Source: Acidipropionibacterium acidipropionici
Lineage (GTDB): Bacteria; Actinomycetota; Actinomycetes; Propionibacteriales; Propionibacteriaceae
DNA: 64,000 nt
Direction: 5' to 3'
NCBI RefSeq assembly: GCF_001441165.1
Contig: NZ_CP013126.1
Location: 1,207,551-1,271,550 of the forward strand
Position 1 is the first letter of the stretch. The number at the start of each line of letters is the position of its first letter. This document shows positions 41,376 to 62,030 of this stretch, piece after piece. A program made the position numbers and the translations under genes. The notes below the pieces were generated by a model, which did not search any database, was not told the origin of the DNA, and was given only the letters and a program-made list of their open reading frames with translations.

Positions 41376-41437
41376 TTTCCTCCCAACACGCCGTCCCAGC
41401 GCTCGCTGGGGCTCGGGGACGGCGTGTTGGGAGGAAA
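41376..41437. repeat. Palindrome, family D copy 1
   Basis: Perfect 22-bp arms (TTTCCTCCCAACACGCCGTC start, 41376-41397; 41416-41437) around an 18-nt loop containing GCGCTCGCTGGGGCT. It lies 72 bp after the methyltransferase stop. Related copies are at 44542, 54843, 60207 and 60554. Confidence 0.75.
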
Positions 41438-42348: not shown

Positions 42349-44250
<1,902 letters not shown>

Positions 44251-44541: not shown

Positions 44542-44595
44542 CTCCCAACACTCCGTCCCGCAGCTCTGGAGAGCGCGATGACGGCGTGTTGGGAG
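44542..44595. repeat. Palindrome, family D copy 2 (imperfect)
   Basis: CTCCCAACACTCCGTC (44542-44557) pairs with GACGGCGTGTTGGGAG (44580-44595) with one mismatch. It is a decayed member of the family at 41376 and lies near the convergent fumC stop. Confidence 0.6.
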
Positions 44596-54842: not shown

Positions 54843-54910
54843 GATTCTCCTCCCAACACGCCGTCCCGGCGCTCGCCAGGGCTGGGGGACGGCGTGTTGG
54901 GAGGAGAATC
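54843..54910. repeat. Palindrome, family D copy 3
   Basis: Perfect 25-bp arms starting GATTCTCCTCCCAACACGCC (54843-54867 and 54886-54910) with an 18-nt loop containing GCGCTCGCCAGGGCT, close to the loop of copy 1. It lies 57 bp after the GH29 stop and about 100 bp before the GH20 start. Confidence 0.75.
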
Positions 54911-57659: not shown

Positions 57660-58128
57660 TGCCAGAATTCTCCGGAATTCGTCCACGCGCGAGGCTGACG
57701 CCGCCAGTCGCTGCCTTCGAAACTATGAGATGTTCCTGCTCAATGGATTCTTGGGGGGAAGCGTGTTCTTGGCGTCGTGCCAGACGACGTTTGTACACGT
57801 TCAAGGCGGAGTCCTCCCGTGCTGCGCGTTTCGGGCAGTCACTGTTCCTTTCGTGATCCCGTTTGTCCCGGCCGGTAAGAGGAATCCCGCTCCCGGCCCC
57901 GGCCGCTGTCGTCACCGCTCCCCACCTCTTCCTCGTCAGTCCCGCAGATTTCCGGTCGGGCGTGGGTCCTGCCTCCGGTCCCCCATTCCCGTCCTCGGCA
58001 CTTCTGCCCCGGCGACGTCCGGTCGGGAGGGGCGCTGCCTCCGGTCCCCACACCATCCGGCGCTGGCCCGTTCTGTCCCGCCGTCTTCCCGCCGGGTGGA
58101 GCCCTGCCTCCGGTCCTACTCCCTGGTC
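57660..58128. other. Intergenic region with imperfect TGCCTCCGGTCC repeats
   Basis: 469 bp between the convergent GNAT-like and HNH genes. The 12-mer TGCCTCCGGTCC occurs three times (near 57969, 58029 and 58107) in a C-rich decayed tandem array. Short ORFs here lack coding character. No strong hairpin is visible. Confidence 0.4.
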
Positions 58129-59715
58129 TCAGGCGATGAGCGTGTCCTGGGCGCCGGTGTCGGGTCGGTGGGCGGAGTTCTCCTGCTGGTTCTGGCTGTG
58201 GCTTTGGGGCGTCATGGCTTCGGGTGCTGCCGTCGCCTTGGTCCGGTTCTGGGCGGAGTTCTCCCTATCATTCTCGCCGGGTGGGAGGTCGCGGCGGAGT
58301 CGGCGGGGTGGGTGGACGTGGGGTCGGCCGGTGTCGTCGAAGGTGATGCGCCATTGGTCGGCTGCGGGGTCGAATCGGTGGGGTTCGATGACGCCGTGGT
58401 GGTGGCGGCACACCAGCACCAGATTGTCGATGGATGTGGGTCCTCCGGCCCACCAGGGTGTGACGTGGTGGGCCTGGCAGGCCTGGGCGGGAACCTGGCA
58501 GCCGGGGAAGATGCAGCCCGTGTCGCGCAGCGCCAGGGTCTTGCGGATCTGGGGCGTGACGAGCCGGTGCTCCCGGCCCACGTCGAGGATCTCGGAGGCC
58601 TCGCCGAGGGCCAGGGGGAGAATTCCGGCGTCGCAGCAGGCGATCCTCACCTGGGAGGCCGACACATCGGCGCCGGTCTCGCTGGTTCCGGTCAGCGCCG
58701 CCTGCAGCCGGGTCGCCGACACCTCATCCAGTGCCGTCCCGTCGGGGCGGAGGCCGGTGGCCGCGGCCTCGACGGCCAGCTGCAGCAGACCCATGTAATC
58801 CAACGTCACCACAACGCGAGGCGCCTCCCCGCCCGCGGCAGGGATCTGCCCGGCGTCCTGGAGGGCGGTGATCATGTCGGTGAGGGCATCGGCCTGTCGC
58901 TGGGCGGTGGTCCGGTGCTCCCGCTCCTGAAGTGCCGTCCGCGCCGCGAAGTACTCCCCAGAACTCAGCTCCCCCGAGACTTTCTGCGCTTTGAGTGTCT
59001 CGAGTTCTCGGCGCTCGTCTCCCCGGCCGCGTTCCACGCAGGCGCCGATGACTGTGCGCAGCAGGTCGCCCTCGGTCTGGGGGAGTCGGCCCCAGAAGCG
59101 GACCGAGCCCCGGCCGTCCTCGGCGAAGTTCAGTTCACGCTCCCTGAGCGCTCGTTGCCGTCGCCGTTCGGCCTCAGCGGCCCGACCTGCTGCGGTGGGC
59201 GCCAACTCTGGGGCCACCTGTTCCAGCACCCGATCAGCACTGCGGCTGATCTGGCGGGTGGTGGCACCACCGATGGCCTGGTCCAACAGCACCCCCGCCG
59301 CCGCCTCACGTTGGGACTCGGTCATGTCGTGGCGGGGCAGTTCGCGCAGCACGGCCCCGGCCGCGGCCGCCTTGCCCGGTGAGACGGTCCCGGCCAGGGC
59401 GGCGTCGCGGACGGCGGGATCGGCGGTGATCCGCCCGGCCTGGTGGACCAGGCCGTTGGCCTCACTGGAGCTGCGTCCCTCGGTGAGGGCCAGGTAGTCG
59501 CTCAGCGGTGTGCCTGCTGTTTTCTCGGTGGCGCCGGACCGGGCGACCAGGTCGGTGTAGACCGCCGCGAGGGCCACCATCCGATCGGCCAGCGCCCGGG
59601 CCCGGTTCATGGCGGCGATCTTGCGGGTGTCGGGCATGCGGGTATCGCCGGTGTGGTCGATGGCGTCGAGCGCCTGTTCGATCACCCCGGTCGCTTCCCA
59701 GAAGTCCCGTCCCAT
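58129..59715 (-). CDS. DUF222 / HNH-endonuclease (13E12-type) protein
   Basis: A 528-residue protein of an actinobacterial multicopy family. The DUF222 region occupies about residues 30-330 (SEANGLVHQAGRITADPAVR; GTVSPGKAAAAGAVLRELP). The HNH domain near 390-450 has CIFPGCQVPAQACQAHHVTP, WAGGPTSIDNLVLVCRHHHGVIE: zinc cysteines and the catalytic histidines are intact. A polar tail follows. Such genes are often scattered and repeat-associated; a homing or defence role has been suggested but is not established. The AT-richer DNA upstream of its start suggests transfer. Confidence 0.88.
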   Translation of the reverse strand: MGRDFWEATGVIEQALDAIDHTGDTRMPDTRKIAAMNRARALADRMVALAAVYTDLVARSGATEKTAGTPLSDYLALTEGRSSSEANGLVHQAGRITADPAVRDAALAGTVSPGKAAAAGAVLRELPRHDMTESQREAAAGVLLDQAIGGATTRQISRSADRVLEQVAPELAPTAAGRAAEAERRRQRALRERELNFAEDGRGSVRFWGRLPQTEGDLLRTVIGACVERGRGDERRELETLKAQKVSGELSSGEYFAARTALQEREHRTTAQRQADALTDMITALQDAGQIPAAGGEAPRVVVTLDYMGLLQLAVEAAATGLRPDGTALDEVSATRLQAALTGTSETGADVSASQVRIACCDAGILPLALGEASEILDVGREHRLVTPQIRKTLALRDTGCIFPGCQVPAQACQAHHVTPWWAGGPTSIDNLVLVCRHHHGVIEPHRFDPAADQWRITFDDTGRPHVHPPRRLRRDLPPGENDRENSAQNRTKATAAPEAMTPQSHSQNQQENSAHRPDTGAQDTLIA

Positions 59716-59765
59716 GGAAGAACTCTAGATCATGTGGACGCCATATACCAGACCTTGGACCTAAG

Positions 59766-59796
59766 AACACTGATCGCAGATTATCGGTGTTTTCTT
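59766..59796 (+). terminator. Hairpin with T-run upstream of the HNH gene
   Basis: AACACTGAT (59766-59774) pairs with ATCGGTGTT (59783-59791, one mismatch) and is followed by TTCTT. This is the most classical terminator shape in the window, yet no plus-strand gene precedes it. It might instead be an operator of the HNH gene. Confidence 0.35.
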
Positions 59797-60159
59797 AATG
59801 ATCGGGGCCTCACGTTCGTGAATTCGACGAGTCTGGGGCGCGGCGGATATCGGGCCGGCGATGGAGTCTCAACGGTGCGCCCGTAATATCCTTGTCGCCG
59901 CGACGGATTCTCCTGTCCGGACCGCCGTATCCGAGTGGATCCACATCTACCAGACACCACTGACACAATCGGTCGGGATGTCCCGCGCGGTCTCGATGTG
60001 GACTCCCCGGATCGTGAGCGGAGGGTGAGCCAGGCCATCGGTGCTTCCGACCGGGCGTCGCGCTCCGGGATGGCGGGATGGGGCCGAGGTCGTGTCGGGC
60101 AGCCGGGGCGGGTGGAGGCGGAGTGGGTGCGGCACTGTTGGGGAGGGGCTCGTCCGCCA
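59797..60159. other. Gene-free stretch upstream of the DUF222-HNH gene
   Basis: The left part to about 59960 is AT-richer than its surroundings. ORFs on both strands lack ribosome sites and a consistent codon pattern. I support no gene here. Confidence 0.4.
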
Positions 60160-60289
60160 GGCTGCCGTGCGATCCGGGCCGGGGTCCCTCCGCCAAGGGG
60201 AGCGGCTACTCCCAATACGCTGCCCCACAGCTTGCCGGGGCCGCCGCACGGCGTGTTGGGAGGAAATTATCCACAGTTGGCGCACAGGA
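60160..60289. repeat. 130-bp repeat module with family D palindrome, copy 4
   Basis: The module begins GGCTGCCGTGCGATCCGGGC and contains a degenerate family D palindrome (about 60207-60265) followed by TCCACAG and CACAGG. It recurs at 60510-60637. Confidence 0.7.
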
Positions 60290-60509
60290 GGGCGCGCAGG
60301 GTCGCAGGCCGCGACTCGCTCGGTGCCGGACGCCGGGGATTGGGTCGCACCCTCTGAGCCGCAGCCTGCGCCTCCCTCGGGGGCGCCCACCTGGTTCGGC
60401 ACTCGGCCACACTCCGGTGTCGGGCGTCACAGCCCCGCGGCCCCATACGGCAGGGCAGGGGACGTGGTGCAGGGGCTCGGCAGGGCAGCGGGAGAGGGCG
60501 ACTCGCCCT

Positions 60510-60637
60510 GGCTGCCGTGCGATCCGGGCCGGGACCCCGTCATCAGGGGGCGGCTACTCCCAACACGCCGTCCCACAGCTCACCAGGGACGGAGGACGGC
60601 GTATTGGGAGGAGAATCCCCACAGCTGGAACACAGGG
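60510..60637. repeat. 130-bp repeat module with family D palindrome, copy 5
   Basis: Same upstream block as 60160-60289, then CTACTCCCAACACGCCGTCC (60554-60573) with its complement (60594-60613, one mismatch) and the CCACAG...CACAGG tail. The two modules are 350 bp apart in the same orientation. Confidence 0.7.
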
Positions 60638-60731
60638 GAGGGCAGGCCAGCGCGCCGGGCGGTGTGGGGGGGCGGAAAGTCAGTGCGTCGGGCGGTGCGG
60701 GGGAGGGCAGGCCAGCGCGCCGGGCGGTGTG
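60636..60731. repeat. Direct repeat GGGAGGGCAGGCCAGCGCGC
   Basis: Two copies of a ~31-bp block (from about 60636 and 60701, 65-bp period) with GCCGGGCGGTGTG following the sequence named. Between 60732 and 60962 no gene is supported. Confidence 0.6.
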
Positions 60732-60962
60732 CGTGGTGCGGCAGGCCGGACGGCGTGGTGCGTGAGGGCGCCAGGGCGGGGAGATGATGCAGGGAGACGG
60801 TGACGCCGGACAGGAGTGGATCAGACGGCGACGCGTCGATGCCCCGAGACGCCCGGGCAGTTCAGCGAGACATGGCCGGTCATGTGGCGTTCCCGTCCGA
60901 CACGCCGGGGGTCGCGCTGAAATACCCGGATGGTCCAGGAGACCCGAGCCCCATCCAAGGGT

Positions 60963-62030
60963 TCAGAGTGCCGCGAACCCCTCATCCACGCGCTCCCGCA
61001 CGATCTCCCGGGTCTTCTCGTCGCAGAAGGCGGCATCAGCAGCGGTCACCGCGACATGGTGGAGGTCCTCGACCTCCCAACCGAGCGCATCGGCGGTGAG
61101 GGTCGACTCGCGCGTGGCAGAGGTGCGGCTCATGAGGCGGTTGTCGGGGGAGATCGTCACCGGAAGACCCGCCTGCCACAGCACCGCGACCGGATGCGTC
61201 CTGACGTCGTTGCACAGCCCGGTCTGGACGTTCGAGGAGGGGCACACCTCCAGGGCGATCGCCGCCTGGAGCACCTCCGCGGCCACCTCTCCCAGCTGGA
61301 GCACCCCCGCCCCGTACGAGGTGATGTCCTCGACCAGCCGCACCCCGTGCCCGAGCCTCTCGGCCCCGCAGGTGAGGGCGGCCCGGATCGACTCCAGCCC
61401 GTCCCCCTCTCCGGCATGGATGGTGACATGCCCGCCGGCGTCCGCGACGTCGTCGAACAGGTCGAGGAACCGCTCCGGCCCGAATCCGGCCTCCGGCCCG
61501 GCCAGGTCGACGCCGACGACCCCGCGCCTCAGCCGATGGGTGACGAGTTCGGCGAAGTCCGGATCGGGATCTAGCTGACGCATCGCGGTGAGCAGCTGCT
61601 TGATCACGACGGGACGCCCGAGCTCGGCCACCTCGGCCATGCCCTCGTCCAGCCCGGCCTGGACGGCGTCGACCGCCTCTCCCATGGACAGGCCGCCGGC
61701 GGTGTGCTGCTGAGGCGCCCAGCGGGTCTCGGCGTACACCACATGGTCAGAGGCCATGTCCTCGACGTACTCGCGGGCCACCCTGCGCAGCGCCTCAGGG
61801 GTCTGCATGAGCCCCACGGTGACGTCGAAGGTCTCCAGGTACTTCGGCAGCGAGCCCGAGTCCGCGGTCTCGAAGAACCAGTCCGCCGCCTCCTCGGCAG
61901 TGGCTCCGGGAGCCGTCACCCCCTGCTCGCGCGACAGCTCGAGGACAGTGGCGGGCCGCAGACCGCCATCCAGGTGATCGTGGAGGACGACCTTGGGGGA
62001 GAGTCGGACGAGGTCAGGGCTCACAGGCAT
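60963..62030 (-). CDS. add: Adenosine deaminase
   Basis: Zinc hydrolase of 355 residues converting adenosine to inosine. The first metal motif is H17-D-H19-LDG, followed by HAGEGD (proton-shuttle glutamate region), ERLGHGVRL and SPDNRLMS; the last normally reads TDDP in the family, and SPDN keeps the metal aspartate. It starts 23 bp after the citrate synthase stop in the same direction, so co-transcription is likely although the pathways differ. Confidence 0.93.
   Translation of the reverse strand: MPVSPDLVRLSPKVVLHDHLDGGLRPATVLELSREQGVTAPGATAEEAADWFFETADSGSLPKYLETFDVTVGLMQTPEALRRVAREYVEDMASDHVVYAETRWAPQQHTAGGLSMGEAVDAVQAGLDEGMAEVAELGRPVVIKQLLTAMRQLDPDPDFAELVTHRLRRGVVGVDLAGPEAGFGPERFLDLFDDVADAGGHVTIHAGEGDGLESIRAALTCGAERLGHGVRLVEDITSYGAGVLQLGEVAAEVLQAAIALEVCPSSNVQTGLCNDVRTHPVAVLWQAGLPVTISPDNRLMSRTSATRESTLTADALGWEVEDLHHVAVTAADAAFCDEKTREIVRERVDEGFAAL

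Follow-up and report, generated by a model that had tools for sequence, protein, structure and literature searches.

The window is the whole stretch of DNA analyzed here, 64,000 nucleotides of the A. acidipropionici genome (G000), and contains a gap of 1.2 kb between a DUF222-HNH gene and an adenosine deaminase gene. No gene was called at 59715-60963 by our own simple gene caller, in agreement with the earlier description of a gene-free region, although mechanical open reading frames overlap the gap. Two repeat modules lie in the gap, both upstream of the start of the DUF222-HNH gene. The features discussed are the following:

41380..41433, no strand assigned: family D copy (genome 1248930), with a counterpart in the congener G001 at 186547
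44542..44595, no strand assigned: family D copy (genome 1252092), with a counterpart in G001 at 189711
54850..54903, no strand assigned: family D copy with long near-perfect arms (genome 1262400)
57660..60962, no strand assigned, boundaries approximate: block of the DUF222-HNH gene and both modules, absent from A. thoenii
58129..59715, minus strand: gene for a DUF222 and HNH endonuclease protein, 528 aa, REP13E12-type (PF02720, E=1.8e-13; PF01844, E=8.2e-6)
60146..60295, plus strand: extended module 1, consisting of a left extension, a degraded family D palindrome and a CCACAG..CACAGG tail (repeat search)
60209..60262: family D palindrome of module 1, core arms 60209-60223/60248-60262 (genome copy 1267759; 3 mismatches to the arm consensus)
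60496..60643, plus strand: extended module 2, 76-78% identical to module 1 and 348-350 bp downstream of it
60557..60610: family D palindrome of module 2, core arms 60557-60571/60596-60610 (genome copy 1268107; 1 mismatch)
60635..60747, no strand assigned: 33-bp tandem array, 3.5 copies (repeat analysis)
60963..62030, minus strand: adenosine deaminase gene on the right flank, at whose end the gap ends

The initial annotation had described two modules of 130 bp, 350 bp apart. They are real and somewhat longer, about 150 bp each: a repeat search aligned 60198-60295 with 60546-60643 (98 nt, 78% identity, offset 348) and, immediately to the left, 60146-60200 with 60496-60550 (55 nt, 76% identity, offset 350). 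As had been claimed, both contain the arms of a palindrome termed family D together with the CCACAG..CACAGG tail, and a partial tail, CTCCACAGCAAACTCACAGG, is present behind the family D copy near 41437. The resemblance of 76-78% bears out the proposed local duplication; both modules belong to an extended variant of family D and have diverged since they were duplicated locally. A further direct repeat does follow them, but its unit is 33 bp rather than the reported 65 bp, which is the distance from the first to the third unit of the array. When up to 3 mismatches are allowed, the arm of family D is matched 10 times in the window, a number reached in none of 100 shuffles (mean 0.66, largest 3). 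An Rfam scan of 59700-61000 returned no match at E<=1; the only match in the window at the gathering threshold is a TPP riboswitch (RF00059, 58.7 bits) at 44136-44243 on the minus strand, outside the module region. By themselves, the modules are ordinary repeat variants beside a multi-copy gene.

Family D is an intergenic two-fold palindrome of about 75-80 bp. Each half-site consists of GGRG, 6 nt, CTCCCAACACGCCGT(C), about 6 nt and GCYC, and the second half is inverted at fixed spacing. Whole-genome pattern and DNA searches, followed by a script applied to the retrieved stretches, gave 38 candidate rows in G000, of which two with 7-8 mismatches were left out; the arms of the remaining 36 intact copies are spaced by 39 in 35 cases and by 47 in one, and an additional truncated copy is located at 3384734. 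The 35 copies of equal spacing were aligned. Their core CTCCCAACACGCCGT and its mirror image hardly vary and the outer GGRG and inner GCYC are conserved, whereas the intervening positions drift. An outermost block, reading CTGTGG when on the left and CCACAG when on the right, is found on one side in 12/36 copies and on both sides in none; the CCACAG of the module tail is this block. None of the 36 copies is positioned within a gene predicted by our own simple gene caller, which is based on codon usage. By the same gene calls, the neighboring genes are in tandem at 24 copies, divergent at 8 and convergent at 4. Of the 20 flanking genes tested, 18 gave Pfam hits at E<=1e-8, and these belong to unrelated pathways with no evident shared function. 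A variant palindrome, CACCCGACCCGCCGTCC..GGACGGCGGGTCGGGT, was observed at L050:2889, about 110 bp from a family D copy, with both arms changed alike.

Under a definition of fixed arm spacing and no more than 3 mismatches in 28 arm bases, G001 harbors 20 family D copies. Of the 37 genomes searched, five (G000 included) match family D at E<=0.001, and all five are within the genus. A genome-contig scan for the exact double core, which may omit near relatives of G000, returned five stretches, from A. jensenii, A. thoenii, two Leifsonia and one proteobacterial MAG; the last was judged by eye to be a chance hairpin. When R/Y variants of the double core were scanned for at the level of the class, 1/394 genomes (G000) matched; in this set of genomes the double core is thus uncommon. 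No stretch with the exact double core was found in viral contigs. A third species of the genus (G003) carries a related family, in which TCCCGACACGCCGT is common to one arm. The 48 D-like sites counted there are half-site matches, about 16 of which were viewed as sequence; they remained after 9/57 listed sites had been removed beforehand as other sequence variants. Palindromes with the core TCCCRACAYGCCGT, or TCGCAACACGCCG in L106, were seen in Leifsonia (L103-L106, L083, L085) with outer CTGG/CCAG or GAGGGG-type arms and a spacing of 30-31 bp, and Leifsonia sp. CL147 has several copies. We found no description of family D or of DUF222-tied palindromes in the open-access literature searched, including the available parts of PMC10589994, PMC12306157, PMC2817692 and PMC4331003; A. 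thoenii appears in a table of PMC12306157 as one of the genomes in which generic palindromes were screened for.

The initial annotation had considered the element to be larger than the palindrome. This holds for 9/36 copies, whose left flank stands out when scored against extended copies. The left flank of the other 27 does not stand out, and for the general element this is the outcome that had been named as refuting the idea. Six of the nine are located upstream of DUF222 genes (5 loci, same orientation) and, serving as reference, have left-extension scores of 25-46 against a background of 360 pieces (mean 10.6, maximum 18). The extension is weaker at three copies unlinked to DUF222 genes: those at 1552125 (score 22) and 1911388 (score 21) exceed all 360 background pieces, and the score of 18 at 963950 is equalled by 1/360. 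As a group, the 66 non-extended sides, these three weak ones included, lie slightly above background (p 0.005). Extended copies thus form a subfamily with about nine members, and six of these are beside DUF222 genes.

DUF222 matches number 11 in G000 (two of them below the curated cut-off), 10 in G001 and 27 in G003. As in REP13E12-type elements, the DUF222 gene is multi-copy and is combined with an HNH domain, which was tested in the protein of the window only. Extended D copies precede 5/7 of the G000 DUF222 genes with full-length domain matches by about 400-1300 bp, always in the same orientation. The DUF222 gene at genome 1973823 is preceded by a single module, to which module 1 is 85% identical over 217 bp; in this best-matched pair, both gene and module are homologous to those of the window and the spacer in between is not. 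No such linkage was found in G001, where all 20 D copies are more than 12 kb away from each of the 10 DUF222 matches. In G003, 7/48 D-like sites are within 1.5 kb of one of the 27 DUF222 matches, with 1.36 expected, and some of these seven cases resemble each other, such as L193 and L202, each situated about 540-560 bp upstream.

Other palindromes were also observed near DUF222 genes. A second dispersed family (type Q, CAGGGAAAACTGGCGACGGCA..) has about a dozen sites in G000 between 183845 and 3084426, the set being 12 pattern matches grouped by eye (listed loci: L061, L073, L183, L197, L200). Type Q palindromes occur in DUF222 upstream regions and are within about 1.2 kb of 4/11 G000 DUF222 matches, and a species-specific version is found at about 10 places in G003. 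Furthermore, a GGAAGTCTGACGGATTNTCGTTTGA-type palindrome is located 131-135 bp upstream of six DUF222 genes of G003 (L187, L190, L196, L198, L199, L201).

The block of the DUF222-HNH gene and its two modules is not shared by all species of the genus. The genes flanking it in G000 are neighbors in A. thoenii, where about 88 bp separate their aligned parts and the DUF222 gene and modules are both missing. The corresponding distance is about 377 bp in A. jensenii and about 12.8 kb in G003, where the neighborhood thus differs. In G001, a DUF222 gene occupies the position of that of the window, and 4.7 kb of other sequence separate it from the adenosine deaminase gene; the 1.5 kb upstream of this DUF222 gene contain no module match, and there is no D copy closer than 12 kb. 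We infer a likely history in three steps: a DUF222 upstream region would have gained an extended D copy in this lineage, gene duplication would then have carried the module along with the DUF222 gene, and a local duplication would finally have given rise to the pair at 60146-60643.

Two properties make family D as a whole more interesting than the modules had suggested: the constraint on its core in place, and the strong concentration of its copies on the origin side of the chromosome. The first point comes from 12 site pairs shared by G000 and G001, whose orthology was taken from the alignment of at least one flank (a single aligned flank for some); for 271689 and 355753, which have two copies in G001, one of each was used. 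The core arms are identical at 349/360 positions (96.9%), compared with 210/288 inner and 168/240 outer positions (70-73%) and 2054/2407 aligned flank positions, gaps being uncounted (Fisher p 1e-19 for core against inner, 3e-21 against outer and 5e-12 against flank). The contrast persisted when three pairs with poorly matching centers were removed, with 262/270 for the core, 176/216 for the inner and 132/180 for the outer positions (p 8e-9 for core against inner and 1e-13 against outer). In two of these three pairs the center has flipped in place between the species: at 271689, 21/24 positions agree in inverted and 11 in direct orientation, and at 1358052, 18 and 10.

The occurrence of the sites is less stable. 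Seven G000 sites could be aligned with G001 sequence that lacks the element (431628, 468437, 905187, 989723, 1181045, 1305763, 1405527), the intergenic alignment being rough at several of them, and D sites are thus gained and lost like a repeat. Target-site duplications, for which a check had been proposed, are not a general feature of the 36 copies: the flank score averages 6.46, against 6.20 for mismatched flanks, and D does not resemble a MITE or insertion-sequence derivative in this respect. One copy, at 989723, is flanked by an 18-bp duplication resembling the scar of an insertion. At three places, a segment between two D copies in one species (9.7, 1.85 and 1.17 kb) corresponds to a single copy in the other (L049-L050 and L126; L128 and L052; L127 and L051), as in repeat-mediated gain or loss. 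Integron attC-like sites were considered for these segments and rejected, because TCCCAAC does not fit the attC box consensus RYYYAAC.

DNA folding of four D copies yielded strong hairpins for those at 41380 and 54850 (z about -9), which is due to the symmetry of the sequence, and the weakest hairpins of the four for the module palindromes (z -1.7 and -4.8). Across 35/36 copies, 86.0% of cells are paired, against 85.4% in shuffles, and the covariation score is 0.121, against 0.116, with 136/500 shuffles as high; some paired changes are found at positions 17/74 and 18/73 alone. The covariation that would indicate a structured RNA or selection for a hairpin was thus not detected in this alignment. 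The sequence comparison favors two half-sites read as duplex DNA over a hairpin, which may form nonetheless.

The second point is the distribution along the chromosome, measured as distance from dnaA (at 1146673 in G000 and 1162 in G001). A patchy GC skew suggests that the terminus is nearer 2.0-2.5 Mb than opposite dnaA. In G000, where the half-circumference is 1.83 Mb, 34/36 copies lie no farther than 1.03 Mb from dnaA and the two outliers are 3430850 and the DUF222-linked 3084631; all 20 G001 copies are within 1.06 of 1.72 Mb. The mean fractional distance, 0.259 for the 36 and 0.256 for the 20 copies, is in each case below all 100000 uniform draws, and the bias persists when one copy per 10 kb is retained (27 copies, p=3e-5 in G000; 15 copies, p=1.6e-4 in G001). 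The largest arc free of copies spans 1.11 Mb in G000 and 1.70 Mb in G001. Among copies without a known counterpart, the bias is clear for the 24 of G000 (p 4.5e-5) and weak for the 8 of G001 (p 0.09). The related family of the draft G003 assembly (86% complete) provides an independent hint of the same concentration: 13/48 D-like half-sites are on the 384-kb contig with dnaA (p 0.0009) and 0/48 on the 461-kb contig C1 (p 0.0017). The intergenic fraction of sampled G000 stretches is similar near to and far from the origin (0.173 and 0.201). DUF222 matches have no detectable origin bias (p 0.25 for 11 in G000 and 0.62 for 10 in G001, a test of low power), and the 12 type Q matches lean toward the origin as D does (p 0.025). 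Instead of function, the bias could reflect a gene turnover that is faster at greater distance from the origin.

Several known systems resemble family D in part. Chromosomal sites of the Noc/SlmA type are bound by a ParB-like or TetR-like division regulator. According to the available text of PMC4331003, Bacillus subtilis has about 70 palindromic Noc-binding sites (NBSs) that are absent from the terminus, and the SlmA sites of E. coli are similarly distributed. Family D likewise comprises tens of palindromic sites over much of the chromosome that are depleted far from the origin in terms of distance from dnaA; it differs in its size of about 75-80 bp, its three conserved blocks per half and its wide copy-free arc (1.1 and 1.7 Mb). 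The matS sites bound by MatP, also repeated tens of times in one chromosomal domain, are described in the available part of PMC3330122 as 13 bp long with 23 copies in the 800 kb of the E. coli Ter macrodomain; D, by comparison, is larger and marks the origin side. REP elements are intergenic multi-copy palindromes with GTAG/GTGG-type heads (table in the available text of PMC2817692), from which D departs in its GGRG foot and, at about 75-80 bp, in not being a short hairpin. Mobilization by a RAYT was rejected: in five genus genomes searched, a Y1 transposase domain (PF01797) was matched once, in G000, and not in the palindrome-rich G001 and G003. Like the imperfect palindrome ERIC, which is about 127 bp long, D is intergenic, dispersed, imperfectly palindromic and restricted to a lineage, and it differs from ERIC and REP-BIME by a core constrained in place. 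REP13E12 of Mycobacterium tuberculosis resembles the linked gene, which is multi-copy and encodes a DUF222 domain, joined by HNH in the copy of the window; most D palindromes are unlinked to such a gene.

We tentatively prefer to read family D as a putative large symmetric protein-binding site on the origin side, following a logic similar to that of Noc and SlmA, with the two modules as variants upstream of the DUF222-HNH gene. A dimeric or oligomeric DNA-binding protein would recognize the double-stranded half-sites, and the copies might mark the origin side for segregation, folding or the timing of division, as Noc sites in Bacillus avoid the terminus. This preference is due to the core kept between species, the symmetry without covariation and the origin-side concentration in two complete genomes. 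Against it speak the variable presence at the seven aligned sites, the weak bias of the 8 G001-only copies, the same lean of type Q, the 18-bp duplication at 989723 and the module palindromes being the most degraded of the D hairpins folded; the part of the extension shared by three unlinked copies is moreover what would be expected if longer units were copied about. In a close rival, also quite possible, D is an ERIC/REP-like dispersed palindrome, non-coding and spread by some enzyme or recombination without a cell function. Its intergenic, multi-copy and genus-restricted occurrence (5/37 genomes), the seven aligned sites lacking it in G001, the partial extension at unlinked copies, the segments bounded by two copies and the centers inverted in place agree with such an origin. 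Neutral relics, however, should not hold a core at 97% with the rest at 70-73%, an overall target-site duplication signal is lacking, covariation would be expected if the hairpin were the recognized form, and the restriction to the origin side would require an extra cause.

A more specific proposal, which we consider unlikely, is that D is a non-autonomous partner of the DUF222-HNH (REP13E12) protein, which would nick or copy it as a RAYT does REPs. The extended copies ahead of five full-length-domain DUF222 genes in the same orientation, the type Q palindromes near four matches and the excess in G003 are in line with this proposal. The linked modules share flanks beyond the palindrome, though, and are probably not independent; some of the G003 cases also look alike. 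The weak extension at unlinked copies, the lack of linkage in G001 and the different chromosomal distributions of D and DUF222 also count against a partnership. It is very improbable that D acts as a transcription signal, whether as an intrinsic terminator, attenuator RNA or regulon operator. The strong hairpins of good copies, calculated as DNA, would suit such a role, and D is nearer the 3' end of the upstream gene in 12/20 tandem gaps (20 of 24, DUF222-linked ones left out; median 57 against 105.5 bp, Wilcoxon p 0.11), but copies between divergent and convergent genes, the lack of covariation and of an Rfam match at 59700-61000 and the functionally unrelated flanking genes argue otherwise.

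Going beyond the preferred reading as a binding site, family D would be a candidate for an undescribed origin-domain marking system in Acidipropionibacterium, with one protein binding 20-40 large two-fold sites confined to the origin side; we regard this as rather doubtful. If true, the related TCCCRACACGCCGT cores in G003 and, at 30-31 bp spacing, in Leifsonia would trace back to a single actinobacterial pair of site and protein that diverged together. A family of such constrained sites would provide a direct handle, as bait DNA, for seeking a chromosome-marking factor. Even if D is merely a repeat, multi-copy DUF222 units travel with palindromes.

A separate observation concerns the A. thoenii-like genome (G002). 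Its segment C16:2700-6937 (L132) matches G000 815407-819643 (L056) over 4.2 kb at 99.6% identity, and the two genomes are 74-80% identical at one other locus compared. The segment holds the sole full D copy of A. thoenii as well as a partial copy near its end, and by its sequence looks like a recent horizontal transfer or a mixing of strains.
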